Shown in pieces: positions 2,285 to 59,800 of a stretch of DNA of 64,000 nt (the first letter of the stretch is position 1; each line of letters begins with the position of its first letter). The stretch spans positions 4,665,383 to 4,729,382 of the forward strand of contig NC_089732.1 in the NCBI RefSeq assembly GCF_035083965.1, read 5' to 3'. Made by a program: the position numbers and the translations under genes. The DNA is from Branchiostoma lanceolatum. Its lineage: Eukaryota > Chordata > Leptocardii > Amphioxiformes > Branchiostomatidae. The notes beneath the pieces are model-generated. The model was not told where the DNA came from. It saw only the letters and a program-made list of their open reading frames with translations, and did no database searches.

Positions 2285-5200
2285 GGAGGGTTCCGTCTTG
2301 AGATCCTAAACAACACGGGACCGGACTTTAACGCGACCACGGACATCCTGCGGGTGCTGACACCGGGAGACGGCTTCACGTCTGCTCATGACGCCACGTA
2401 AGCAGTGATGATATCATTCTTATCTCCATGAAAAATGGAGATATAGTTTTTGGCCTGTCTGTCTAAGCGTCTGTCTGTGTGTCTGTCTGTTTTTGTTTCC
2501 GGACTTTTGTAGTCAGCATACATGTAGCTCAAGAACCTCTAGATGGATCATGATGTTATTTGGTATGCGGGTAGGTGCTGAAAATACGAAAGTCAAGATC
2601 AATTTTGGGCCCCCTGAATTTCATGATATTGTATGATTTCCACCAATGCCCAGCCTGGAGATGTACGAGCTGACCCTGCCGTCTGGGTTCACCTGCGACC
2701 GCTGCACTATCCGGCTGCTCCGCCAGGCGGGAGAGTGGCGCCTTGGAAACGGCAACGACTACATCTTCTGGAGCTGTGCTGACGTCACCATCGTCTCAGG
2801 TACGTCATTAGCCCCAGAACTAGACTCATCCAAACCCCTTTGCTTTTTGACAAGAAGTTCGCCACGTAGGGTGAATTATTCGCCGGAGGAGTGAGACCAG
2901 ACAAGCGACAACTTATGGATTATGGTTGAAGCTTTCCTTTTAAGCGCGGGAGTGTAGTAATTTTGAGCGATAGTGTTTTTTCATCTCCAAACAGATCTAT
3001 CGGTGGCAATGACAGTATCCAAAGGGCAAAAGGACTTTCATTGGCCAACTTTTGCTCTTTGCCACCGATAGATCTGCTTGGATATTATTTGTTGTAACTG
3101 GCCATGGACGTCACATTTCTAAGAATTTTGAAGGCAGATGTTGTTTTTTCAACGTAGAAAACTTCTTTCTTGTCTGATGGCGACCTTATATAACGTCTAC
3201 ATATAAGAGGGAATGTTAATACATGAGGTTTACATACGTTTCCGTCAATATCAATGCGTTTTGACATACATGATGAGTGACATTCTTGTTTTGCCACAGC
3301 GTGCCCTGGCGGACAATGTGGGAACAGCACCTGTGCCAGACTGTATAGCGGAGACAGGTGTCAGTATAAAGGTCAGCATACGTCATACTTTCCTTTCTTT
3401 TTTCTTTAAAACCCACAACATTTTCGGTTCAAACAGATCCACGTATTTCCAACTCCCAAAGATGTCTAGTATTGTACATTGGAGATACCGTAAACAAATG
3501 TTCTAAAACAATTACCATGTCCTTTATAATGAACAGTTCAGCAATTAGTCTTTTCTTTCTTTCTTTCCCACAAGACTTGTTGTTGACAAGATATGTTCTA
3601 TCAAAGTCACCTACTTGTGGCCTTCCACAAGAAACCGTCCTTGGTCCCCTTTTATTTCCATATTTTGCAACCTTTACAAAACGTTTCCTAGTTGCCTATA
3701 ACCTCTGCTGTTACACTGTCTACAAGACCTTTACCTCATCCCTAACCCTCGTATTGTGCATCAGATGACTGTATGGACAACTCCGACTGCAGTGGTAACG
3801 GCGTGTGCAGGGATGTGAGGTCCACCTCCTACCCCAAGAAGCAGTGCTACTGCCAGAGTGGCTACTTTGGACGGGACTGTTCGAAGGGTAAGTGTTCAAC
3901 TCCTCTAACCTTTATCGTTTTCGCTTTTGTTGTTGCCGATAATGCTGTGATAATTTTGCTGTTGTTATTGCTGTTGTTATTGTTGTTGTTATATTATTGA
4001 TGTTGTTATTATGTTGTTAAAATCAACCAACCCACTTGTAATTCAAAACGTGGGTCACTTCATTTTCCACTGCCTTCAAAAAAGAAGTCAAACCCAACCA
4101 TAGTCAACCATAACATAAAACTTTCACAGTAGACTAGATAACTATTTCGATTTCCATGTATATGTATCTCCATGTACTTGTGTGTCTGCAATTAGCATTT
4201 GGGCATGAACTTGCAATAAAGTTATTCATTTATTTATTATCATATCCATCATTGGCTGTTATTTGTTGTGACATGGGTGTTCCTTGTTTCCAGTGTCGCC
4301 CCTGAATGCCATCCCTTCCACCTTCCAAGGATACTACCACCGGGAACTGAATGACAAGATGGACATGTACTGGAAGATGCGCGTACGTATCATATGATGG
4401 ATATTTAAGATAACGCCGAAAACCACCAAAACAATCCTGATAAGCCCAGAAAAACCGCTATCTAAATCTCTGGCCAAGAAAATCGCTGAGACAGGGCTTC
4501 CGTGTAAAAAAAAATGTTACAACGACGCATGCCCGGACACATTACAGAAATTTCTTTTGAATAAGTAGAGTGTTTAGCAATCGGGCGTATAATATACTAT
4601 CAGACTTGCTGCTGAAGCTTCGTCTAAAGCACTTCGTCCAAAACAGGCATGATATTACATATCATATATAGACAGACTATAAATGTAACTTCTCTTAACT
4701 GAAAAGTAGCCCTACTACAATAACAGCACATAATAAGTACGTATACAAAAAGAAAAGCTCTCTTAATGTGGACTGAGTAGAGTGAATGTTTACAACACTT
4801 TGTACCATATATAGGTAAATATAGGTTATTTTCATAGTTCAAGAATTACGTGCTCTATTCTGTTGACGCAATACTAAAATAAAATTTCTTCCAGTCTGGG
4901 AACGAGCTTGAAGTGGCCCTGCAGGTCGAGGGAACGACGTGGGCTGGCCTCGGGTGGAGGCCGCTAGGTAAGCCGAGAGTTTGTGAATTTTTCTGGCGCT
5001 ACTTAGAATGTTCCTATGAAACTGTTGCATCAGATTGTATGTACAACCATGCCTTGAACTGTCATCAAAAGAAGAAGTGCCCACTCATCTTGCATGCATC
5101 ATTAATGAGAAACTAGAAATGTATATCGATATCTCTTAAGGAAGACTTTTTCCACAGCACGCGATGATTTTCTGATCAATGAAGAAAGTCATAGAGTGGT

Positions 5201-8200
5201 ATTTGTGGTAAAACTGGTCGGACTCGAAGCCGCAATCGAGACGAAATCACGGTGACGTTTTTTGGTGTAGCTAGTAGTAACTGAATTGCGGCTTTGCTAT
5301 AGCTCGCGTTTGTAGACAAGCACACCGGGTCATCCCTACTCTTCTCGATACGTGAGTTGTTTTTTTACGTGCAGGGGTTTGATGCCTAAGGCTTGGCGCC
5401 TGACGCTCCCCCATACATGGGGCCGCTGGCTTCACGTCACCATCCGAAAGAGATCTAATACGCGGGGAACTTGACTTCGTGTTTTTTTTTTCAGGTTTGG
5501 CGGCCACCTGCCGGAACTTCCCGGTGACGTACTTCAGTTCAGACCCGCAGGCAGAGCCGGAGTCCGAACCAGAGGCGGAGGCGGAGCCCACCACACAGGC
5601 ACCGGTAATTTCTTCTTATTCTTTCCATCCAACTATTCGACGAAAAACAGCGGATGCTGTGTATCTAGAGTAACATCATGCCGCAGAAATGTACAACATT
5701 ATGGGGCTCAGTCATGGAACACTCTCTCACTGGAACATCGAACTGTACTTAATTACAAGATATTTACGAATCGCATTGTCAGCGGCAATTGATATCTGTA
5801 CTGTATGTAACGTGGCAATATGATTGGTCATTATGTTATTGTGTAACTAGTGGTAGTTGTGTTTTCAATTTGAAATCAGGGATGCCTGAAAAACAGGCTC
5901 GGCTGAGTGTATTTTCCCTGTATAAATGAATGAAAATGAAACGTCTGACTGTTTCAAAATTTCGGCTTTTCCATTATGTGTTGTTTTAAGAACTTTCCTT
6001 TGTGAATCATTTGTGCAAAATGACTGATTATTAAACACAGGCAACCAGAACGAACATTTCATTTTGTCATGTTTTTTTGTGTAATACCATGTTTGTGTTA
6101 CAATGATTCCAATGTATTTTCATGGATTGGCATTCGGACTCCAATCCTGCAATCTGTATCTGTTGTACTTTGTCTAACCCTTACATGTACCTCCTCCCTC
6201 ATGACTACAACGAAAAGTGGCCTGCAGGCCGATTTGAGCTTCTCATGGATAAATAAATGTTCAAACAAAGCATTATTCGATAGATAACGGCGTAAACGTT
6301 TGATGTCCCCAGGCGGTTGCCCGTCGAGCTGTCCGCGCCCTGCGCATCCCTCGGTCGGAACCCACGGCTGAGCCCGAGGCCGAACCCGAGGCCGAGCCAG
6401 AATCCTTCGTTCCGTGGCAGTGCCAGGCAAACGGAAGTAAGTGTTGTATGACGTTACCTTTCTTTCAGTGCAGAAGAACGTTCAGCCATTTTCTTTCTTT
6501 CTTTCTTTCGATTGTTGTACAAACTGATCGCCTGATGTAGAAAAGAGTTCTGTAATCTTTTGGTTCACCAACTCTGCAGCAAGAATAAAGTCTAATTTCT
6601 AAATTTTGATGGGGAAATTTCACATACCCAAATCGGATATACAGGATTACATCACACTGGTGACGTTGGGTTGGAGATCTGTTTGGGCGTATCTTTTCAG
6701 GGTGGCGGAATTATGTACCCTGGTGGATTCATGTTAGTAGATGTTAAATCACGCTTCTCGACAGCCCTTCCCCGGGTCGGACGTATCTCAGTGCAGGGAG
6801 GGGCTCCACAGAGCCACATGGACAGATAGAGTTTCCATTGTGTTGCAGTCAGACTAAGCTTTTATCACATTTGAGGCTAGGTATGCAGGATTACGACATA
6901 TTACTTTTTTTACCATTCCAGCCCGACCAGAACCCGAACCCGAAGGCACACCCGAACCTTCGAGCGAACCCGAACCCTCGAGCGAACCCGAACCTTCGAG
7001 CGAACCCGAACCCTCGAGCGAACCCGAACCTTCGAGCGCCGAACCCGAACCTTCGAGCGCCGAACCCGAACCTTCGAGCGAACCCGAGGGCGAACCGGAA
7101 CCCGAGGGCGAGCCAGAGCAAGCAGGTTAGTGCAGTCTTTGTACCACGTCAGCCAATATGGGGAATATGCCAGGTACAAGCGAAGGGCATCTCGGTTGGG
7201 GCTGCACCCATCTTTCGGAAAGGACGTACAATGGGGATCCTGTGTTTGAGGGGTCAAAGGGGAAGGGTAGCTATCCCTCCCTGTAAAAATATACCCTGCT
7301 ACTCAAACAACAAGGACACTTGCTGATCTATGCGTCACTCTACACGGTGAACAATAACAAACAGCTTCTGGACATGCTGTGGTCTTGTTTCAAAAGATTG
7401 ATTGACCTCGCTGATTTGTCTCGTTGACGTTGTCCCCTTAAAAAAGGCAGTTTACACGACTTTCCCACAAAATGAGTACCTAGGTCCCTCGGATAGGACG
7501 TTAAATGGAGGTCCCGTTTTTTAGGAGAGCTACACCTGGCGCACGTAAAAGAACCCACCACGCTTATCGAAAAAAAAGTAGGGGTCCTTCCCGGTGTGGG
7601 TGGATCAAATAGATCTGTCCAGATATGCAGTTTGTGCTCTTCAGTACAAACCTAGTGTGTTACGCCATGATTACCGGATATACAATTCAAACAAAGCTTG
7701 TGCTCTCCTAAGGGGGAGGGCTGCACGCCATGGATTGTGTTGACATGGTGATCGGTACAGCGGTGGGAAACACCCACCGTATCGGGGACTACTACACCCG
7801 GGACCGGTCCACGCCGCAGATGGACGGCTGGTATAACGGCGGGCGAGACAGCCTGACGGCCGCCTATGGGGAACAGAGGGACGGCAAAACCACCATCATG
7901 TTCCGCAGGAAACTGACGAGTAAGTGACACTACCTTGCGTGTATCCCAATCGATTCATTGTGAATATAGCATTAGGAGATTACATAATGATTGGTGTCAA
8001 GACATTAGAAATTGCAACAAATAATGGACAAGGATACATTGTACAGTCTTTTGTACAGTAGATTAGTTTTCTAGAATTATTGTAAAAGTTGCAATAGGTC
8101 GTACACATTTGTATCATATAACATTGTCAGACAATAGCAGAAATGAATAAAAAAACTTAAACAATCAAACCCGTTTAGGTGACCGACCACCTGCCCAATG

Positions 8201-11200
8201 TAACCACTTGTTGGTGGTCCATTAGATTATATTTCCATTGACACAAGCATTAAGAATCATGTCTGTAGTGAACAGTGTTGTTCATATAGACCTGATTTTA
8301 TCGGTCCCCCTGAGTGGTAGTTTTGACTGTACTAACATTATCATAACATACCACTTTTAACATTTCAGGCAGCGAACAACAAGACCACAGTTTCTACAAC
8401 TCCCCGATGCACTTTATCTACGCCCGTGGTCAGGAGTACGGCATGTACAGCCACCGACCGGGGTCCGCAGTGGAGAGCTGTAACGCCACGGACTACATGT
8501 AAGTAGCAACGTCTGTAGGTTTATTTCTCTTTTAGAGTATTCACAGCAACATTGTTCCAAAAGTATCTCCTGTCCTTTTGGGAAATTGGTCATTTTTGTT
8601 CACGTTGTCGAAGTATATAAATTGATGCTATGTCCCTGAAAATGCATCACCTGTTATGAAGTTGTTTTGCATCTTAGACCAGATTCATTCGTGAAAACGT
8701 GTGAAAATAGCCAATCGTTTTGCCGAATCTTTAGAATAACTTTTCCATGCCCAAACGGCTGACTGCAAGAATAAATCAACAACTAAATGACCTTCATCTT
8801 AATATGAAGACCTGCTTCACACATTTTCATTCAATGTCATTTTTGCTCACGTTGTCGAAGTACATCTATATAAATTGATGCTATGTCCCTGAGTGTAAAT
8901 ACCTGTTACTCGTAAATCTTATATTATTATCCAGCTTGCTTAGACCAGGAAAAATAAGTTACAGTATTATTTTGCCGAATTGAAGAAAAACTTTTCCTTA
9001 ATTGCCGAAACGGCTGAGTGCAAGGATAAGTCAACAGCCAAATAACTTTCCTCTTATGAAGACATGTACATTCAATGAAACCATTTCGAACCGTTGTTCG
9101 CGGCCATTGACAATGTCATTGACTCTGTAGGTTCTACCGACGTGATGAGCTGAAGTACCACGGCCACGGTCATTCACAGAGGGGCGCCGCGACTTTCAAC
9201 GTCTTCGGTAGGTGTTTTCAGAGTTTGCAATTGGTAGTTGCCTTAAAGTTTGGTAGGTCTTTGGTAGGAGTTTTGGCAATCTCTGCCTCTTTATTTGCCT
9301 TTGTTTCTTATTTCATGTGTGCAAACCAATAAACAAACAAACAGACAAACAATCGTACGGCGAATATGACCGAGCCTTAAGAGACCAAGCATGTTCAACG
9401 TACCTGTTTTGTCCGTTATTATAGAGGACCCGAATCAGGCCGGTGTTGCCGGAGACTGCCGCGGACGGTGGAGTTCCCCTGCCAACTGCCAGGGTCTGGC
9501 CTGTGACCACTCCGTGTCCTGGACACTCAACCAAGGCACTGACAAGGTACGTTTTCTGAGCACATTTCTTTTATACTGACCCTACGGCTGACTAAGCTAT
9601 GGGAGAGAGAGAGTGAGTGAGTGAGTGAAATTTCATTATTCACAACTACGTATCTAACACGAGCCAACGTTTCGATGACTGTCTGTCATCTTCATTAGGT
9701 TACTGACTGGTTTTGCTGTGCACTAAAGCTATGTGATTCATTCATTCATTTGTGATACTGGTTCACAGTAATTGAAACGTTGGTTCGTGTTAGATACGTG
9801 ATTGTGAATAAAAGAACTTTGCTGTTCAGTAATTCACCAACCTGATGAAATTATTCACAGAAGGTTCGTTTTCTGTTTCGTGGGACGACTTGGCGAGGAG
9901 GCTGATTAGCGATTTTTCTTGCACCGTTTTATATTTTCATGGACTATATAGTTTATCATCTAGAAGAGCCTTACACGACTTTCTCTTAATTTGTCGCTAA
10001 GGGTTTGGGCCTTAGAAATTAAGGTTTTGAATATTTTCAAGACATTACCTAATTCAGTTATGAGTAATGTTTTTCTTTAAGGATTTTTAGACTTTGAGAA
10101 AAAGGCGAAGTGCTTCCTTGGCCGAAGATTCTATACTGTTGGAGCGGTGATCCATTTTGAAAATCTCTTGACATCTTACCTTTTGTTTCTTTAGATCGAC
10201 TTCCAGATCCAAAGCAAGCAAGCCAATGACAAGTGGGTTGGCATCGGATTCTCCGAGGACAGGAGAATGGTAGGTACAACACTCATCTAACTCTCCATCA
10301 TTTCGTATTTGGCTGAGTAGAATTGTCTTTGTACGTCTGTGCCATATATGTTTGTGAACATATCTTCCGCTGAGTATTCATTGATGTTTTCTCTGTTGTA
10401 TCCAGGCTGAAACTGACGCCATTGTTGGCTGGGTGAGTGATACCGGTGAAGTGTACGTCAGTGATAGGTGAGTAGTTTATGTTAAACTTATGTATCCATG
10501 GCGTAGTGGGATTGTTTTAATGTGAAATAACTGTAGGCTACTGTTTGCTGTGGAACAAAGACAACAATGTTCTGTGCCAACGACTCTTGTAGCATTGATA
10601 AATGCGTACTTGTAGCAATATTTGGACACTTACTGTGTTTCACTTTAAATAAACAATAAGCAAATGAAGTTTCACTGGGGAATATTGTCATTGGAAGAAA
10701 AATCGCAAGGAATAACTTATGCATAACAATACATTAGATAAATACAAGCTGTTACAAGGCATTCACCGGGCAAGCAATGGTCATCATACAAAGCTAGTAC
10801 TTATGTTCAATCTTAGCCTTCCTTACAGGCACAATTATCGTCAAACATTAATGATAACGTTTCACTTTTTCCTGCAGGTATGCAACTGGATACGGAATGC
10901 CAGGCCCAGACAACAATGACATAGAGAATCCACACGGCTCATTCAGGGACGGCATGGTCACACTGAGCTTCACCCGCAAACGGAACACAGGTAGGTTTAC
11001 TGTTCTGAAGAACTGGGGCATTCGTTCTAAAGAAGGGCATGCTGTTCTAAAGAAATGTCAAGGAGTATTCTATACGAAAGAACTGGTCAATCTTTTCCTA
11101 TTCTAAACTAGGGCATTTTATTCTAAGGAACTGGTCATTCTGTTCTGAAGAATAGCATTTTGCTATAAAGAACGACATTCTTATCTACCTAAAGAATGGT

Positions 11201-12803
11201 TTTCTTTTTATATGGCATCCTTTTCCATAGAAAAGCTCGGTCACGTAGGTCCACTCAGGCCTATAACTAAGGACGTATACCAAACGCCGGGCAGGTAGAT
11301 TTGCTCTAGGTTGTAACATAATAACATTATTTATTTGCTGTATATCTGTTTTGAATCAGGTGACAACAGAGACCGAGCCTTCACGGACAACAAGGGCCTA
11401 TACATGTTCTTCCCGCGAGGGGGAAGCTATAACCATGCAGCTAAGACCTTTTCCAAACATGCCGTCACCCCAACCATCAGCTCACAGAGGATCTTCATCC
11501 GGGCGTGTGGAGGGGGAGGTCGGTACCTTGTGTGTCTTATGTCAGTCTAGAAAGGAACGAAGAAAGCCAAATCAACTACATTAACAAAACTGTAATAAGT
11601 GGTAGAATCAAAACTGCACTAATGACCACCTCTGCTTAAGGACCACCTGGCCATTGCAACCGTGGCCATATTTTAGTGACCCCTTAGATGATTTGTCCCG
11701 TTGACACAAGACCTGACTAAGAATCCTCTCTGTAGTGGACAGACCTGTTTACTGTGACCAGTTTCGTCATGTCTCTTAGGAGTCATTTGAGACAGTGTCT
11801 CTATTAAAACAACTGCTAATCCTTAAACAGTGACTGGTGAAGATACTTGAATGGTCACAATAGACAGGCGGATATTAAAGACAGGATTCTTCACGCTTAC
11901 CAATAGTAATCCAAGGTACATCAAATAGTGGCCACAGTGGCCAAATGGTCCTTATGTAGACTAGTGCTAGATACATGGTCAAGAAATGTAGGTGTAATGT
12001 TACCAAATAACTGCATGCCAAGCTCTAACTGTTGTCACAGATGGGGGAGTGAATCTATCTGGTTGGTTCTATAATTTCTGATGATTTTAGTTTGGCCAGA
12101 TGGTGACATTTTCACATATCATCAATATGTTTTGGGTGACATAAGGTTACCATAATTAAAGCTAACCTTACTTCAATATTGTTAACTTTACCATGAAATT
12201 GTATTATTTTGGTTATATCACTATTTCTGTTCACGTTTTTCTTTTCTTTGTCTTATTTCTTCATCCAATCACTCCGTGCACGTGGAAACTACCTGTTGTG
12301 TATTATGTGAGTTTATGACATGGAAATTTCTGGGCTGCTAAAAGGGAGCTAAAGAATGCTGATATAACTTATACCATCAGATACTGCAAATTAACTCCCA
12401 GACTGTTGCGATTTGTGGCTTGTAATGTGAACAACATTGTTTGCTCTCTGCTCATGTTGTGCTTGTGTAATGAGATGCAGGGCAGTGCATGAGAAGCCAA
12501 TAGACCTCTTTCTAAACTCTGGTGAAGAGGGAGAGCCAACGGTAACTATATATGGAGGATGGTACCTATTCTTAAGTTTCAAAAACAAAACACCCATCAA
12601 AAGTTTACACAAGCGATGTGCGACAGATATATATAAGCAGGGATTGGGAATATGTTTAAGTGAAAGAAACTTGATTTAGGATGAAAACTTATCTCTGTTT
12701 TGTTCGTTTTGAAGGTCCCGTGGGTGCAGGGTCCACCGTCAAGCCCTCTGCCATCATCCTGCTGACCCTGGTGATGACCATATGGGGACTGCTGAAGGAG
12801 TGA
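2285..12803 (+). CDS. LPMO-like / EGF-like / double DOMON protein, GPI-type tail (5' incomplete)
   Basis: Eighteen phase-consistent exons: 2285-2397, 2654-2799, 3300-3371, 3765-3887, 4294-4382, 4895-4967, 5495-5604, 6313-6436, 6922-7125, 7713-7919, 8369-8498, 9131-9207, 9425-9546, 10195-10269, 10406-10467, 10878-10990, 11360-11518, 12715-12803. They encode 695 residues plus stop. Residues 1-86 resemble the C-terminal half of AA15/chitin-binding-4 LPMOs: GGFRLEI, then [15 protein letters not shown], then [10 protein letters not shown]. The N-terminal copper histidines would be in exons not seen. Residues 87-151 are two Cys-rich EGF-like modules. DOMON 1 (152-489) is split by a Pro/Glu-rich insert at about 216-352. 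DOMON 2 spans about 490-665. Both DOMONs have an M-x3-D-x-(V/I)2-G motif ([23 protein letters not shown]) where cytochrome-type DOMONs carry the haem Met. The last 25 residues are a hydrophobic tail after GAGST, consistent with a GPI signal. Role inferred: extracellular redox or polysaccharide-matrix protein, partly like insect Knickkopf. The start lies outside the window or is unrecognised. Confidence 0.75.
2992..3076. repeat. 85 bp hairpin element
   Basis: Inverted arms CAGATCTATCGGTGGCAA (2992-3009) and its complement (about 3059-3076) flank a short centre. It lies in the intron between the LPMO-like exon and the first Cys-rich exon. It looks like a very small MITE or foldback; no target duplication was identified. 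Confidence 0.6.
5285..5450 (-). repeat. Interspersed SINE-like repeat, truncated
   Basis: Shares 'aagcacaccgggtca ... cttctcgata' and 'cctgacgctccc...ggggcc' with the longer copy at 26640-26860, and the 'cttatcga-aaga' end with copies near 7560 and 43290. It lies in an intron of the DOMON gene. Confidence 0.5.
6940..7110 (+). repeat. Coding minisatellite, 18 bp unit (PEPSSE)
   Basis: Roughly seven or eight copies of an 18 bp unit (GAACCCGAACCTTCGAGC) lie inside exon 6922-7125 and encode PEPSSE repeats. Units keep the reading frame, and the region ends in [12 protein letters not shown]. The preceding exons (5495-5604, 6313-6436) also carry AEPE/SEPE runs. The insert falls inside the first DOMON domain, so the array probably forms an acidic, extended surface loop. 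Long antisense frames here are a by-product of the repeat. Confidence 0.85.
7135..7330 (+). repeat. SINE fragment
   Basis: Matches the body of the tRNA-derived element at 52255-52530 ('catctcggttggggctgcaccc', 'ggggaagggtag', 'tccctgtaaaaatatacc'). The tRNA-like head is missing or degraded. Intronic. Confidence 0.55.
7395..7615 (+). repeat. SINE-like interspersed repeat
   Basis: Contains 'ttacacgactttc', 'gtacctaggtcc' and 'aagaacccaccacgcttatcgaaaa', all shared with the tRNA-headed SINEs at 43261-43470 (opposite strand) and 59225-59460. Intronic in the DOMON gene. Confidence 0.55.
8588..9065 (+). repeat. Intronic tandem duplication, about 247 bp period
   Basis: Two diverged copies. One starts at about 8590 ('catttttgttcacgttgtcgaag') and the second at about 8838 ('catttttgctcacgttgtcgaag'). 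Both continue through 'ttgatgctatgtccctga' and 'aaacggctga-tgcaa'. It lies wholly inside the intron between 8498 and 9131. Confidence 0.65.
9650..9840. repeat. Interspersed repeat with 'cgaaacgttggc / gaataaaagaac' end
   Basis: Inverted-type motifs 'taacacgagccaacgttt' and 'aaacgttggttcgtgtta' lie about 130 bp apart, followed by 'gtgaataaaagaacttt'. A related end lies at 32450-32535. Intronic, no coding potential. Confidence 0.5.
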
Positions 12804-17366: not shown

Positions 17367-25122
<7,756 letters not shown>

Positions 25123-25185: not shown

Positions 25186-25746
25186 GCCTGCCGAACTACA
25201 TGGTCACAATGTAAGAACTTTGCGATTGGACGAGGTTGTTTTCCCGGGATCCCAGCGCTTTTTTAGATTATCACACGCTTTTTGATCGTCAATATTTGCA
25301 TCGGACATCTGGTGTGTTCCCAGCATTTAGCTAGCATTGTGTGTGATTTCTCTCTTAGCAAGGGAATGTTATTAAAGTATCCAACTTTTGAGGGGGATAG
25401 ATAAACTGGATGTTTTTAGCTGAAAAACAGATTTTTGTAGGTTGGTGAGATCTCGAAAGCTAGGAGAAATGTCGAAGGCTACTCTGAATGCACTTCTCTC
25501 TCTCGGTGCTATATTGTGTGCATTGACAAATAAAACGTATATCATTACTTCCGATCAACCGTCAGACTGGGTCGACCGTACATTCTTATCTATATCACTG
25601 TTTCCGATCGTACCAGAGGCCGAGGACTGCCTGTCCTGTATGTATATAGCTTTCAAGCGACCTAGGGGACTGCTTATTGCATTATTAAATAGCCTATGTA
25701 AACATCATCAAAGACTGTGATGGCTGGTTATTATATAACTTGTTTT

Positions 25747-26614
25747 ATGTCATGCCTGGGCCTGATACGGGCGTTCCGGACCGTGTGATAACTATCCGGA
25801 TCACATAGGGTTCGGGAGGGTTATCACACAGGCTTCCATAGAATATTTCGAACGCATTTCGAACGCGTCGGTTGCGCGGCCGTCGGAAATTCGAATACCG
25901 GATTCGGAGATTGGAATCAATGTTGCTACAGTTTCTTGTTCGAGGACACAAAACTCCCTCAACTTCTGGCACATTTCGCATTGAAATGTGTGTTTTCTCG
26001 GGTGGGTATGGCCAAGGTATGACATAAATAAAATACAACACGTTGTATTCCGCATCACCCTCGGTCCCAGCCCTCCCGCGGGTCGGATCGCCCTCCGGCC
26101 TACGGCCGTCGGGCGATCCGACCCGCGGTCGGGCTGGTACCTCGGGTGATACGGAATACCCCGTGTTGTATTCTATATTTATGTCATGCCTGGGCCTGAT
26201 ACGGGTGTTCCGGACCGTGTGATAACTATCCGGATCACATAGGGTTCGGGAGGGTTATCACACAGGCTTCCATAGAATATTTCGAACGCATTTCGAACGC
26301 GTCGGTTGCGCGGCCGTCGGAAATTCGAATACCGGATTCGGAGATTGGAATCAATGTTGCTACAGTTTCTTGTTCGAGGACACAAAACTCCCTCAACTTC
26401 TGGCGTATTCCGCATTGAAATGTGTATTTTCTCGGGTGGGTATGGCCAAGGTATGACATAAATAAAATACAACACGTTGTATTCCGCATCACCCTCGGTC
26501 TCAGCCCTCCCGCGGGTCGGATCGCCCTCCGGCCTACGGCCGTCGGGCGATCCGACCCGCGGTCGGGCTGGTACCTCGGGTGATACGGAATACCCCGTGT
26601 TGTATTCTATATGG
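25747..26614. repeat. 434 bp unit duplicated in tandem, with internal palindrome
   Basis: Two copies, starting at 25747 and 26181, more than 97% alike by eye. Each holds a long GC-rich hairpin (GCGGGTCGGATCGCCC ... GGGCGATCCGACCCGC) within outer arms 'ttgtattccgcatcaccctcgg' and 'cctcgggtgatacggaatac'. No gene. The frames on the minus strand are duplicates of each other and match nothing I know. Confidence 0.85.
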
Positions 26615-26639
26615 CCAATGATATAACGGCCATTTTTTC

Positions 26640-26860
26640 GTTTGAAGGCATCCTCATTTGAGGTGAAGCATGATGCTTTTTCATTTAGCTAATAGTAGTG
26701 CAATGCGGCTTCGCTACGGCTCGCGTTTTGGCCAAGCACACCGGGTCACCCCTCCTCTTCTCGATAAGTGTGTTGGGTTCTTTTAAGTGCAGAGGTTTGA
26801 CGCTTGGGGCTAATGCCTGACGCTCCCTCATACACGGGGCCATATGGCCATATAAACAGT
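26640..26860. repeat. SINE-like interspersed repeat, longest copy
   Basis: The fullest copy of a family also seen at 5285-5450, 21588-21690 and 50355-50425: 'tgaggtgaagcatgatgc', 'gcttcgctacggctcgcg', 'caagcacaccgggtca', 'cctgacgctccctcatacac'. No box A/B could be assigned with confidence. Confidence 0.55.
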
Positions 26861-46600: not shown

Positions 46601-48382
46601 TCTTACCTGGCATATCAAGGGGCTTTGCTAAGATGATGTCCGGTTCTTTCAGTTTCGCGCCAGGATGTGCTGACCAATCCTTCGCAGCGTTACGACCAAC
46701 AACAATCTCTTCTCCACTAATCAAAAGCTTTGACATCTGCCCGCTGCATAGGTCAACCCCTGGGGCTGTTCCAGTTAAAGGCTTCACCCCCACCCCATAC
46801 AGAACTCCGTGCAGTTTCTCCCTAATGGGCCTGTAGAACACAGTGGTGGGAGGGATGGCACTGTCCTCCTCCTCCAGGTAAACGCCACTGTCCCCCTCTG
46901 CCACAGTCAGGATGTCGTAGATTGCTGAAGAAATGAAAATCAAAAGTATTAAAAAAAAACTAAATGAAGGGCTAAAGTTACAAGTGACCAATGAGAATTG
47001 AGGATATACAATGAACAATAAGAATTGAGGACAAAAAGTGACCAATCAGAAGTGAGGACATATCATAACCAATCAGAAGTGAGAACATATAATGATAATA
47101 CATGTTGCCTTCGAATATCCTCTTAGTTTGATCAAGGGATCAGGTAGATAGTAACATCAAAAAGGAAGTACTGACAAATATTATAAGAACTGATAACATG
47201 TCCACTCATTCATGACTCTATGAAACTGTCATGTAGTTAATGACATTGACCAATCAAGACTTCTTTGTATAATTTACCTTTAATGTTCTCTGTATTCTGG
47301 TGTCTTCGTTTGGCTTCTAGCAGAATTTCAGCCCTGATATCCGGCCGGACATGTTTGACAGGACACTTCGAATTCTTGCGTTCTTCACCCTTCAACTGTG
47401 CATGTGTTCCTTCAAGTTCAAGTGCTGGTTCTTTAGTGATCATAGACACAGGCACGGGCCATTTTGCAGTTTGACCAGGCAAAACGTAGGACAGCATAGC
47501 CTGTACAAATAGCTGTACAGTGGTGAGAGAAGAGGAAATCATACGAGCAATGTCAGGAACAGTGATGTCCGGAGGAAGACCATTTATAAATCTGGCAAGA
47601 GCAGGAATGAGCGGCGACCCTTGGGAGACTCGAGCATGGAAGTTTTCTAGCTTGGCGTGTGGAATCACATCATTACCAAGCAGGCATGCAAGAAGGGGGA
47701 GGTCGGATTGCTCAAGGCCGAGGTGCTCACACAGCACATCTACACGGTATCTTACAGTCGTAATATGGTTATTTTTCTGCCTCTTGAGATTTTGAGTAGA
47801 GAAGTAAGACGCAGCGCCCATGTCGTAGATCAGAAAGTCGCTGTCTTGGCTCAGGATTCCGAAACAGTCACTGGAGAAAGCGAACTCTGCGATCTCTCGA
47901 TCCGCCTCAACCAAGGAGTGGTAGACACGGACGCCAAGACTCTTGAGGCCAAGCCCGGCAAACATTCCCGCGCCCGGTGGAAGACGAAGAAGATTGCGAT
48001 AAGGCTCCTTTTCGGTACTTCTGATGTACTGGAAGATTTTCTTCACAGTTTTAAGCTCAGTTTTCCTCCGTGAGATCCACACGGGTCGCTTCGATTTCTC
48101 CACCACGCCATCGAAGATGAACACGACTTCAATCCCGGCGGATTTGAAGTTCTGTACGAAGTTTCGCAGCGAGGCTCGATATTCCTGCCACTGTCCACCA
48201 TACACCCAGGCCAGGCCGCCGTGGTAGAAGTGGTCACGTAAACAGCTCAGGCCGTCCACAACAAGCACTGGAGTCTTCCCGTGCTTTGCCTGGTAGTCTT
48301 GTGCGAGGCTTCTGAGATTGACCTTTTCACGGGCATCGGGACAGTTTTTCTCAACATACGTCTGCAGTCCCTTGACTCCCAT
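43652..48382 (-). CDS. FAM120B: FAM120B-like protein (constitutive coactivator of PPAR-gamma family)
   Basis: Six coding exons, 5' to 3': 48382-47278 (one long exon), 46924-46607, 45981-45845, 45285-45166, 44569-44366, 44203-43652. They give 811 residues. The N-terminal XPG/FEN-like PIN fold (1-280) shows MGVKGLQTYVEKNCP, LVVDGLSCLRD, GGQWQEY, VVFIFDGVVEKSKR, LVEADREIAEF, GILSQDSDFLIYD and LPLLACLLGNDVIP. Several acidic positions are kept, but FAM120 proteins are not established nucleases. Later conserved blocks: TTVFYRPIREKLHGVLYG, GGTPTLEALWF, and VDPRAVQLAALFVKG ... ACSWP ... WWFFDGKYFHHVY. The last exon is a Ser/Lys-rich tail with two to three diverged repeats (SETPT ... RTQKKTVGSVSMVTFDSVS) and ends in basic KKKKRNRKKREK. 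A 5' UTR exon boundary is likely just upstream (TTAATTTCAG|ACAAGC). Human FAM120B is longer (about 910) with a different repeat tail. Confidence 0.88.
45339..45440. repeat. Interspersed repeat with inverted 'caagcaactggat' arms
   Basis: 'actcaagcaactggataaa' is followed closely by 'atccagttgctcaaga'. Related pieces lie at 46390-46440, 55440-55510 and 55780-55900, often next to 'ggatgtctaacc'. Intron of FAM120B. Confidence 0.5.
46960..47100. repeat. Short tandem repeat, about 32 bp unit, four copies
   Basis: Units built on 'gaccaatcagaagtgaggacatat', in FAM120B intron 1. They contain CCAAT-like cores, but a regulatory role cannot be claimed. Confidence 0.65.
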
Positions 48383-48898
48383 GGTGTCCTTTAATAGATT
48401 ATTTATTAGCTTGTCTGAAATTAACACAAAGACAAAAGATGCAGGGTGGAGCACAGTGAGATGTAGAAATTGACGGTTTACCGTTAGATGACATCTAGGT
48501 TACCCCCTCCACAGAGGGCTTGCACTAAGAGAACAAAATAATGTCCTTGGTTCAACAAACCCCCGTCCAAATGGGTCACACGCCCCTCCCAGTGCGGTTT
48601 TTGATCGAGATTGTTAAACGTTACCTCATTTCGGGTACAATTCTAATGGAACTGATATTTCTTTAACAACACAAAACAACTAAATCAGCATTTGACAGCT
48701 CTTTGTCTAGAAAGAAAGGAAGAAAAGAATGAATGGGAATTCGAAAACGAAGCAAACTCACATGCCTGACTCGTACATTGCCCCTGCACTTATTGCAGAC
48801 ACCAATAGGGGGCGCTCTATTGCGGTACGCAATCAGTACGTGCAATGTTAATCTAAATCGCTAGAGGACGCTTTTGTACTGCTAAACAATATCGCAAG
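48383..48898. promoter_or_regulatory. Head-to-head promoter region, FAM120B / EBNA1BP2
   Basis: Only 516 bases separate the two ATGs (FAM120B leftwards at 48382, EBP2 rightwards at 48899). The region must hold both promoters unless the FAM120B first exon lies further off. No TATA box seen. The EBP2 ATG sits in GCAAGATGGCTGCC, a YY1-like element typical of housekeeping genes. Confidence 0.6.
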
Positions 48899-56800: not shown

Positions 56801-59800
56801 AGAGGGAGGGAAAATTGTGTTACTTATATCCCTATGGCACAGCAAAAAGCTGCAGCTGTATTGGCTGATTTCTAGAAGGTCATCTGATATTAGAATCAAC
56901 ATAGGATCAAGTGCATTTTTTGCCTGAAAATCTACCCTATCGTATTTAACAGGACTCTGTGGCCTGCAAACGCTGGCTAATCCCTATAAATCGCATGACC
57001 ATTTTAAACATTTTTTTGTATAAAAGCCTCGTTCTTACCTGATGTAGTGTAATCCCCATCCATACATCTGGCAGCAGCTCTTCACCATGCTGGAAGAGGA
57101 ATTATACATTTCTTAGCCACTTCATATACTGCAGCATTTGGACATTGTAATGTACCAGTAATACTGTTATCCCTGTCCTTGGTGCTGAACGATGCACCAA
57201 GAACACAAGTCCCTGGTACTGAATGACAAACAGACCCCTGTGTGACTTACAGGTTTACTTGAAAAGCTTCAAGATAATCAGCATCCTTGTTCCATAAAGC
57301 ATTTTGCAGAACAGTCAGCATTGTACTGACTCAGAGTTTCTAATAGAGCAAATGATAGATGCCCATAAGGTTCAAGTACTTGCTGTACCTAAAGATGCTT
57401 CCTTGTTCGTTTTTCAATATGGAATAGCAACTGTATAGTGTCATTCTGACTCACCATGAGAGCCGTGAGGTCCTGAAACAGGTCCATGAAGGCTTTGTTG
57501 GAGATCAGGCCAGACGGGGCCACCTTGATAAACTGTATGCGGAATGGAGAAAAGACATTATTCAAAACCTAACGCATACTATGTGGCCAGTAACCAGTCT
57601 TCAATCATCACAGAAACATAAACAAGCAGGTAACAGACTATTCATTTAGACTTCGGGTATCTTGAATGCAGAGAGTTTTGAATGCTTTCGAGAGGGTCTC
57701 AAATCAAAAACAGTGCAGGTATCAATGACCATACAATGTTTCATCTTTTTCCAGTGCTAAATTCTCAACTTTGTGGTAGGAATAACATGTTTTTAGAAAG
57801 GCAAAAAGTTATACAGTTGAGTGTAAGTCTATTCAGGTACAGCGCTACTCAAGGCTGCTTCTGGCGTAAGATTTTTTTCCATCCCACTCATTGTTTGGGG
57901 GCCCATGTTGTTGATTTTCTTCATTAAATCTGTCATTTTTAGTTTCAGAAAATACATTTTCATCAATTTCATGTCATAAAGCTTCAATTTTTGGGATGGA
58001 CGGGGTGAAGTTTTTGTCCATCCCAATAAGCAAATTCATGTCTCAGAACGGAGGGATAGGTCTTGGAGAAAGCCCTGATAATAATACCACTACATTGATA
58101 TTCCTGTATTTTCGACCAGTACCTAGATTTTGAGATGACCGGTACCTGGTTAAAGAGGTTCTTGAGCTGTATAATGGTGTAGACGTCCGGCTGGGGTTGT
58201 TCCACCGGGTCGGGCCGCGGGGGTGGGCTGGGCGTACGGAAAACTTTCCGCTCCTCGTCTATCTGGAAATCCTCCTGTGACATAGCCGAAGACTGCAGGT
58301 TGAGTGGAGGCGGCAATTTCCACACAGATTGTTAGTAAAAACAACAGAAAACTACTAAAAAGATCCAAAGGCTACCGTGGACCCTGCCTTACTTTTAGAG
58401 ACTCTTAAAGTCACAGAAATCAGAAATGACCAAAATGAACGGACACGAACCGTATACATCTTTTCAGACACACATTCAAAACTGTCCAAAAAGACCACTC
58501 AGGGGACTCACAAAATCTGGCCTATGTTGACAAGTGGTCACTGGAGACAGGATTCTTAATGATTGTGTCAATGAGAAAAATTTGGAAAAAAGGGACCACC
58601 AAAAAGGGGTCACAATGGCCAGGGAGTCCTTATGTAGTGGTGGTCATTAGCACTGGTTGGTCTGTATATTGATGGCCAGGTGGTCATTTTATGGAGGGGG
58701 TCACTTGTACAGGTTTGACTGTATATCAATGGCCAGGGGTACTTATGTACGGGTGGTCACTTGTACAGGTTTGACTGAGTCTATATCAATGGCCAGGGGG
58801 TCCTTATGTTTGGGTGGTCACTTGTACAGGTTTCACTGTGTTTCAATGGCCATGTGGTCCTTATATACAGGTGGCTACTTGGACAGGTAGGACTGTATAT
58901 CAATGGATGCCGAAAACGTCCTTATGTACAGGTGGCTCCTTGTACAGGTTTGTCTGTATGTCCTTAGTGACTCCACGTACCTGGTAGAGCACCAGCTCCT
59001 GCTGCACCTTCTCCCTGTGCTCGATGGCGTCGCGTACGATGTCGGTGAGGTGGTCGATGGCGGCCATCTCGCGCAGGAAGCGGGCCCCGAGCCAGTCCTC
59101 CATGTCGCGGTACGTGCCCTCGGACTTGGCCTTCAGGCTCTGCAGCATCTGCATGGCCTTCAGCTTAATCAGCTCAAACCTGGGAACAACAACGAAGAAA
59201 TTTTTGTGTCAGGCAACTTTCTAGTGTGGCGTCATGTTGGCGTAGTGGTTAAAGTGTTTGGCCAAGAGGTCCTGGGTTTGAATCCCCAGGTGACATAAAT
59301 GTACCACCGCTATTGTGCCTGTTTAAAAGGCCCTTTACACGACTTTCTTCATTCTACCCAGGTGTAAAATTGGGTACCTAACCTTCCATTACAGTGCCTT
59401 AGGGATGGGAGGGAGAGGCTGCCCTTAAGGAGCAAATAACTAGGAGTAAATAACTAAGAAGAAAATTAATCTTAGTACCTGTTCTTGAGTCGTGCCTCCT
59501 CCTCATGCAGAGCTCCGAAGTACTCAACCCGCATCTTCTGTTTTACCTCCTTCATCCGGAGGTCTTCTGGACTCTCCTCCTCAACTGCAGGGAGGAAAAA
59601 GTTGTTAAAAACTTCTCGTTTATAAAGCTTAAGCCATTTTGCAAAACTTTGACCATTTCAACTTCTAGCACTGAAGGTAAAGCAGGTTGATAGCTGATAG
59701 TCCTATCTCAATAGCTGATTAAGTGCTTAGCCAGGTACACAGCAGCAAAACCACTTACTGATGTTGGGTTCCTCAACATGCAGAATGTGAATACCTGAGG

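Follow-up and report, generated by a model that had tools for sequence, protein, structure and literature searches.

Within a stretch of 64,000 nucleotides from Branchiostoma lanceolatum (contig NC_089732.1 of assembly GCF_035083965.1, positions 4,665,383 to 4,729,382; referred to as the window), a single gene at 2285-12803 on the + strand was found to encode, on one chain, the C-terminal half of a module resembling lytic polysaccharide monooxygenases (LPMOs), a Cys-rich region resembling epidermal growth factor (EGF) modules, two DOMON domains and a hydrophobic tail. Besides this order, the analysis showed an open gene model, a similar Met/His spacing in both DOMON domains and bacterial relatives of the LPMO-like half which keep both copper-type histidines. 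The best reading of this architecture, which is held tentatively and with less than even confidence, is that of a surface-tethered animal oxidase with a built-in haem electron supply; close behind it come a copper-handling protein and a non-catalytic matrix protein.

Gene model and domain order

The gene comprises 18 exons (2285-2397 to 12715-12803), the splice sites of which were picked by eye on the genomic DNA and subsequently checked by script. The spliced frame amounts to 695 amino acids with its sole stop at the very end, all 17 introns follow the GT-AG rule and an AG also precedes exon 1. The model begins inside the protein. The coordinates and motifs reported for this locus in the initial annotation, which was made from the letters of the window, were found to be correct, and the gene model together with Pfam bore out the proposed order of the domains on one chain:

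2285-2397 and 2654-2799 (exons 1-2), + strand: LPMO-like module, C-terminal half, residues 1-86, beginning two residues past the expected second copper His
3300-3371 and 3765-3887 (exons 3-4), + strand: Cys-rich EGF-like region, residues about 87-151 (EGF_2)
4294-4382 and 4895-4967 (exons 5-6), + strand: first half of DOMON 1 (Pfam)
5495-5604, 6313-6436 and 6922-7125 (exons 7-9), + strand: DOMON 1 insert, Pro/Glu-rich residues 222-351, frame-neutral if skipped
7713-7919, 8369-8498 and 9131-9207 (exons 10-12), + strand: second half of DOMON 1 with Met358 and His449 (Pfam)
9425-9546, 10195-10269, 10406-10467, 10878-10990 and 11360-11518 (exons 13-17), + strand: DOMON 2 with Met555 and His647 (Pfam)
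12715-12803 (exon 18), + strand: Gly-rich linker and hydrophobic tail ending in GLLKE, followed by the stop (hydropathy)

The choice of splice sites by eye, even if checked by script, leaves room for an artefact in which a neighbouring LPMO-EGF gene and a DOMON gene were wrongly joined. Such a fusion is highly improbable, as frame and splice phases are consistent over 17 introns, the intron between exons 4 and 5 measures only 406 bases, and a branch of 'DOMON/EGF and LPMO_10' sequences is already in print (PMC6950343). A second copy of the gene was not found in the window, where tblastn outside of the gene returned four hits only, all with E of at least 2.9. Positions 1-2284 contain no plausible upstream exon: eight GT sites directly preceded by a His codon yielded nothing AA15-like, neither of two in-frame sites with His as the last-but-one codon gave a usable exon, and translated searches of this segment with AA15 sequences returned nothing usable. 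The 5' exons of the gene are therefore probably located beyond the left edge of the window.

The LPMO-like half-module and its bacterial relatives

Local alignment of the first 86 residues to TdAA15A (PDB 5msz) gave a score of 65 as compared to 27.6 +/- 4.7 for shuffled sequences, whereby none of 2000 shuffles, and none of 1000 in a second run, reached this value. Alignment to the bacterial protein L009, a member of the SCE4755 family, scored 82 (shuffles 26.9 +/- 4.4; 0/1000) and that to its relative L008 scored 48, again reached by none of 1000 shuffles; these alignments covered L007, L008 and L009 out of the four bacterial proteins described below. A profile of L007-L009 assigned 13.8 bits to the window segment and 15.3 bits to full-length TdAA15A, while none of 5000 shuffled versions of the window segment exceeded 10.2. 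Judged from these comparisons, the LPMO-like match exceeds what chance would be expected to yield, despite a Pfam score below the cut-off.

In the alignment to L009, GHFRISF of the bacterial protein lies opposite to GGFRLEI of the window protein, and HP directly precedes GHFRISF in L009, which places the expected second copper His two residues ahead of the first Gly of the window protein; exon 1 starts two residues past the position of the aligned His. The Tyr184 of TdAA15A is the axial residue, for which Phe is found in most chitin-active AA10s (PMC5823890), and a Phe of the window protein, ahead of its CAD motif, aligns to this Tyr184, so that an aromatic residue occupies the axial position.

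The AA15 label that the initial annotation had attached to this segment could not be established, since TdAA15A is only the second-best match after a bacterial protein of the SCE4755 family, and the segment stays below the LPMO_10 cut-off. LPMO_10 likewise did not appear in the Pfam scan of the whole 695-residue chain. The SCE4755 model (NCBIfam NF043005) gave 16.8 bits (E 0.0054, profile positions 90-145 of 146) on the window, below its cut-off of 75, and 20.5 and 34.5 bits on the matching half and on the whole of TdAA15A, respectively. As the TdAA15A half outscores the window, this model separates the families poorly. Searching the PDB sequences with the whole chain revealed nothing relevant, and with the half-domain only an antibody (E 0.82).

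Members of the SCE4755 family were searched for stepwise in 398 genomes of one phylum, 299 of one order and 233 of one family, which gave one match, four matches (including the earlier one, and with three over the cut-off) and one match that was already known, respectively; among 14 control genomes none had a match. By eye, all four bacterial proteins thus obtained (L007-L010) carry one His immediately behind a leader that resembles a signal peptide and another one within or close to the strand which precedes the region covered by the window, with L010 being read unaligned. Their LPMO_10 scores are 22.0 (L007), 23.7 (L008), 25.4 (L009) and 26.2 bits (L010), and Pfam scans identified neither DOMON nor EGF in any of the four. 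L010, encoded in genome G457, is a 298-residue frame consisting of a BIM1-like/LPMO_10 N-terminal domain and a C-terminal part without Pfam match.

The model of the BIM1-like 'Copper acquisition factor' (PF20238) was matched by L010 with 30.8 bits (E 4.6e-7, over the cut-off of 27), by L009 with 19.9 bits (E 0.0011) and by L008 with 17.7 bits (E 0.0053), and was not matched by L007 at E up to 1. BIM1 itself is a GPI-anchored (glycosylphosphatidylinositol-anchored) protein which takes part in copper uptake and lacks oxygenase activity. Because the bacterial relatives score for LPMO_10 and three of the four also for the BIM1-like model, copper handling without oxygenase activity is a real rival to an oxidase. 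The LPMO-like module would then bind copper in the manner of BIM1 or X325 at the cell surface and the haem DOMONs would reduce it, serving metal acquisition or acting as a metalloreductase, and for the haem of DOMON domains in animal CYBDOMs a role in relaying electrons, perhaps to metal ions, has indeed been proposed (PMC10691727). Three of the four bacterial proteins, however, exceed the LPMO_10 cut-off of 23, and the window segment, being half a domain, was not matched by the BIM1-like model at E up to 1; overall, this explanation is regarded as unlikely.

DOMON domains and candidate haem ligands

Pfam recognised DOMON (PF03351) in two stretches of the chain with an E of 5.5e-47. DOMON 2 scanned alone obtained 107.3 bits and DOMON 1, with its insert cut out, 62.2 bits as compared to a cut-off of 32.7, confirming the two DOMON domains of the initial annotation. 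On the profile of the AA8 cytochromes (CDH-cyt, PF16010), DOMON 2 alone stayed just below the cut-off of 27 with 26.6 bits, and 23.5 bits were obtained in the whole chain.

The cytochrome of fungal cellobiose dehydrogenase (CDH) binds its haem via Met65 and His163 (PMC11112829). Alignment of DOMON 2 to this cytochrome scored 55 (shuffles 30.5 +/- 5.0, z 4.9, reached by 1 of 400) and placed Met555 on Met65. The candidate haem Met which had been proposed for each DOMON is hence supported in DOMON 2, but gains no support from direct similarity to CDH in the case of DOMON 1. DOMON 1 in turn resembles DOMON 2, with a score of 81 that none of 400 shuffles reached (31.7 +/- 5.7). The candidate Met and His residues are 91 positions apart in DOMON 1 (Met358-His449) and 92 in DOMON 2 (Met555-His647), next to 98 in CDH and 93 in the fly protein CG8399 (Met286/His379; PMC10691727), whereby the placement of the His in both DOMONs follows from spacing and not from a significant alignment. 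A PDB search with DOMON 2 returned two CDH entries (E 0.028 and 0.19); two nucleases found in the same search with E 0.02-0.03 were judged to be chance matches. An alignment of the two DOMONs alone by MAFFT was rejected, for it misaligned the Met regions.

EGF-like region, DOMON 1 insert and C-terminal tail

EGF-like modules had been proposed between the LPMO-like half and the DOMONs. EGF_2 scores 26.0 bits on the 65-residue Cys-rich part alone and 18.2 within the whole protein, with a cut-off of 22.1. The best stretches fall on the second Cys cluster, and the first cluster (ACPGGQC...) was not recognised as a complete EGF.

The halves of DOMON 1 are parted by an insert of three exons that was absent from the initial annotation and sits just ahead of the candidate haem Met. 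A stretch of 130 residues within it is rich in Pro and Glu (36 Glu, 32 Pro), and exon 9, the last of the insert, contains a tandem repeat. As skipping exons 7-9 keeps the frame and joins ...GWRPLG to GGLHAMD, a compact splice form without these exons is possible. The hydrophobicity noted earlier for the C-terminal tail was borne out (15-residue mean hydropathy up to 2.51); since the tail ends with Lys-Glu, a single membrane span is possible besides the GPI signal assumed earlier.

Proposed mechanism and its alternatives

The suggested mechanism assumes an ectoprotein tethered to the membrane by GPI or a single span, of which the LPMO-like copper module at the N-terminus would act on a polysaccharide outside of the cell. 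At least one of the two DOMONs would hold a b-type haem via Met and His and pass electrons to the copper, so that the role which cytochrome domains like the one in fungal CDH play for separate LPMOs may here be fulfilled within a single chain, and the Pro/Glu insert and the EGF region may serve as flexible spacers which let the haem meet the copper module. The protein would then be a self-contained oxidative enzyme. In its most specific form this proposal comprises a histidine-brace copper module related to SCE4755 and AA15, reduced intramolecularly by two haem DOMONs and tethered to the cell surface, where it would act on extracellular polysaccharide, possibly alongside a GH9 cellulase encoded downstream; with all of these details combined, it is considered unlikely.

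Several findings weigh against an oxidase with its own haem supply. Neither copper His lies in the window; both fall into the missing exons and catalysis can therefore not be claimed. The first 86 residues, which represent half a domain, obtain 13.4 bits for LPMO_10 (E 0.13), below the cut-off of 23, while the matching half of TdAA15A reaches 34.5 bits. Alignment to L007, which itself is over the cut-off of its family, is weak, with a score of 35 that 34 of 1000 shuffles reach. DOMON 1 shows no similarity to CDH (score 30, matched by 200 of 400 shuffles), the match around the second ligand (TFSKH/TFSEH) is not significant on its own (96 of 1000 shuffles), and DOMON 2 has a further His nearby, His639, at a spacing of 84 from Met555.

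The difference in LPMO_10 score to the same half of TdAA15A also speaks for a non-catalytic matrix or adhesion protein, in which the LPMO-like module would have lost its copper and be either glycan-binding or structural, and the DOMONs would bind haem, sugar or nothing. An EGF-like region and a Pro/Glu linker would be typical of matrix proteins, and a comparable case is the insect DOMON protein Knickkopf, which works in chitin organisation (PMC11354708). This explanation is somewhat unlikely, given that both DOMONs have Met/His pairs at CYBDOM-like spacing and that the best alignment of the half-domain is to a bacterial protein which keeps both histidines.

Searches in other sequences and neighbouring genes

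Patterns for the LPMO-EGF part matched one stretch in viral contigs, and those for the second half of DOMON 1 matched three stretches in viral contigs and nine in genome contigs; in both cases tblastn identified no relative among them. The DOMON 1 motif, searched for as degenerate DNA, occurred neither in the viral nor in the genome contigs. YxFWSCAD was found in four viral contigs, three times in frames of ~600 residues that by eye look like terminases and once in a frame of 23 residues, and these occurrences were attributed to chance. Phages contained no match to the chain without its tail, and plasmids none to the LPMO half or to a generic AA15 chain.

The gene content of the window points to an invertebrate animal. 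About 5 kb downstream and convergent with the DOMON gene, a gene for a GH9 cellulase, which carries CBM2 at its N-terminus, is located at about 17960-25122 on the - strand; a partial exon join made by eye, with the C-terminal part left out, scored 311.8 bits for GH9 and 27.0 bits for CBM_2. Two of its exon pieces are doubled at 91% identity (21488-21568 / 21720-21800 and 23027-23092 / 23123-23188), apparently including splice-acceptor ends, and are apparently partial exon duplications or haplotype leftovers. On the same strand, near-identical frames of 169 residues at 25745-26254 and 26179-26688 start 434 bases apart and form a local direct repeat. Further - strand features are a gene with an XPG I-region at 47237-48499 (XPG_I_2, 38.8 bits), which we take to be FAM120-like, and an exon at 57984-58331 for which Pfam returned nothing at E up to 0.01 and which is presumably SPAG17-like.

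Relation to known systems and implications

From the SCE4755 family (NF043005), of which L009 aligns best to the C-terminal half, the window protein differs by its DOMON domains and EGF-like region, while CxxC and C-x-D motifs are held in common. TdAA15A (PDB 5msz, PMC5823890) has the register, the CxxC and CAD motifs and the axial aromatic residue in common with the window half, but is less similar to it than L009, the comparison being that of half a module. CBM1, CBM14, GH18 and GH19 are the fusion partners of AA15 named in the available text of the same paper, where the only 'Domon' is the name of an author. Animal CYBDOMs such as fly CG8399 and human SDR2/FRRS1 likewise possess a DOMON in which about 92 residues separate Met from His (PMC10691727); unlike these, the part encoded in the window matched neither a cytochrome b561 nor a reeler domain in Pfam. 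With the cytochrome of fungal CDH (AA8), the window protein shares a Met in register in DOMON 2 and a similar R-x-ATGY stretch, but unlike CDH it has no dehydrogenase domain among its Pfam matches.

According to the initial annotation, the domain order is not known from any described animal protein. This claim of novelty is weakened by the report of 'DOMON/EGF and LPMO_10' sequences as an early, basal branch of the LPMO tree (Voshol et al. 2019, PMC6950343), which consists of the same three Pfam domain types. The tree section of that report implies rather than states that all three are found on one chain, and names no order, species, histidines or function. No published account of the order or the mechanism of this protein was found in the searches of open-licence literature. 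The window protein is hence seen as a candidate self-powered oxidative enzyme that is open to testing, and not as an entirely new kind of protein.

As to how electrons enter TdAA15A, only a suggestion was put forward, with a putative dehydrogenase as a possible route (PMC5823890). If the oxidase reading holds true, an LPMO-like module and haem-type DOMONs on one animal chain would provide a direct and testable answer concerning this electron route, and could shed light on the workings of a functionally undescribed, early branch of the LPMO tree.

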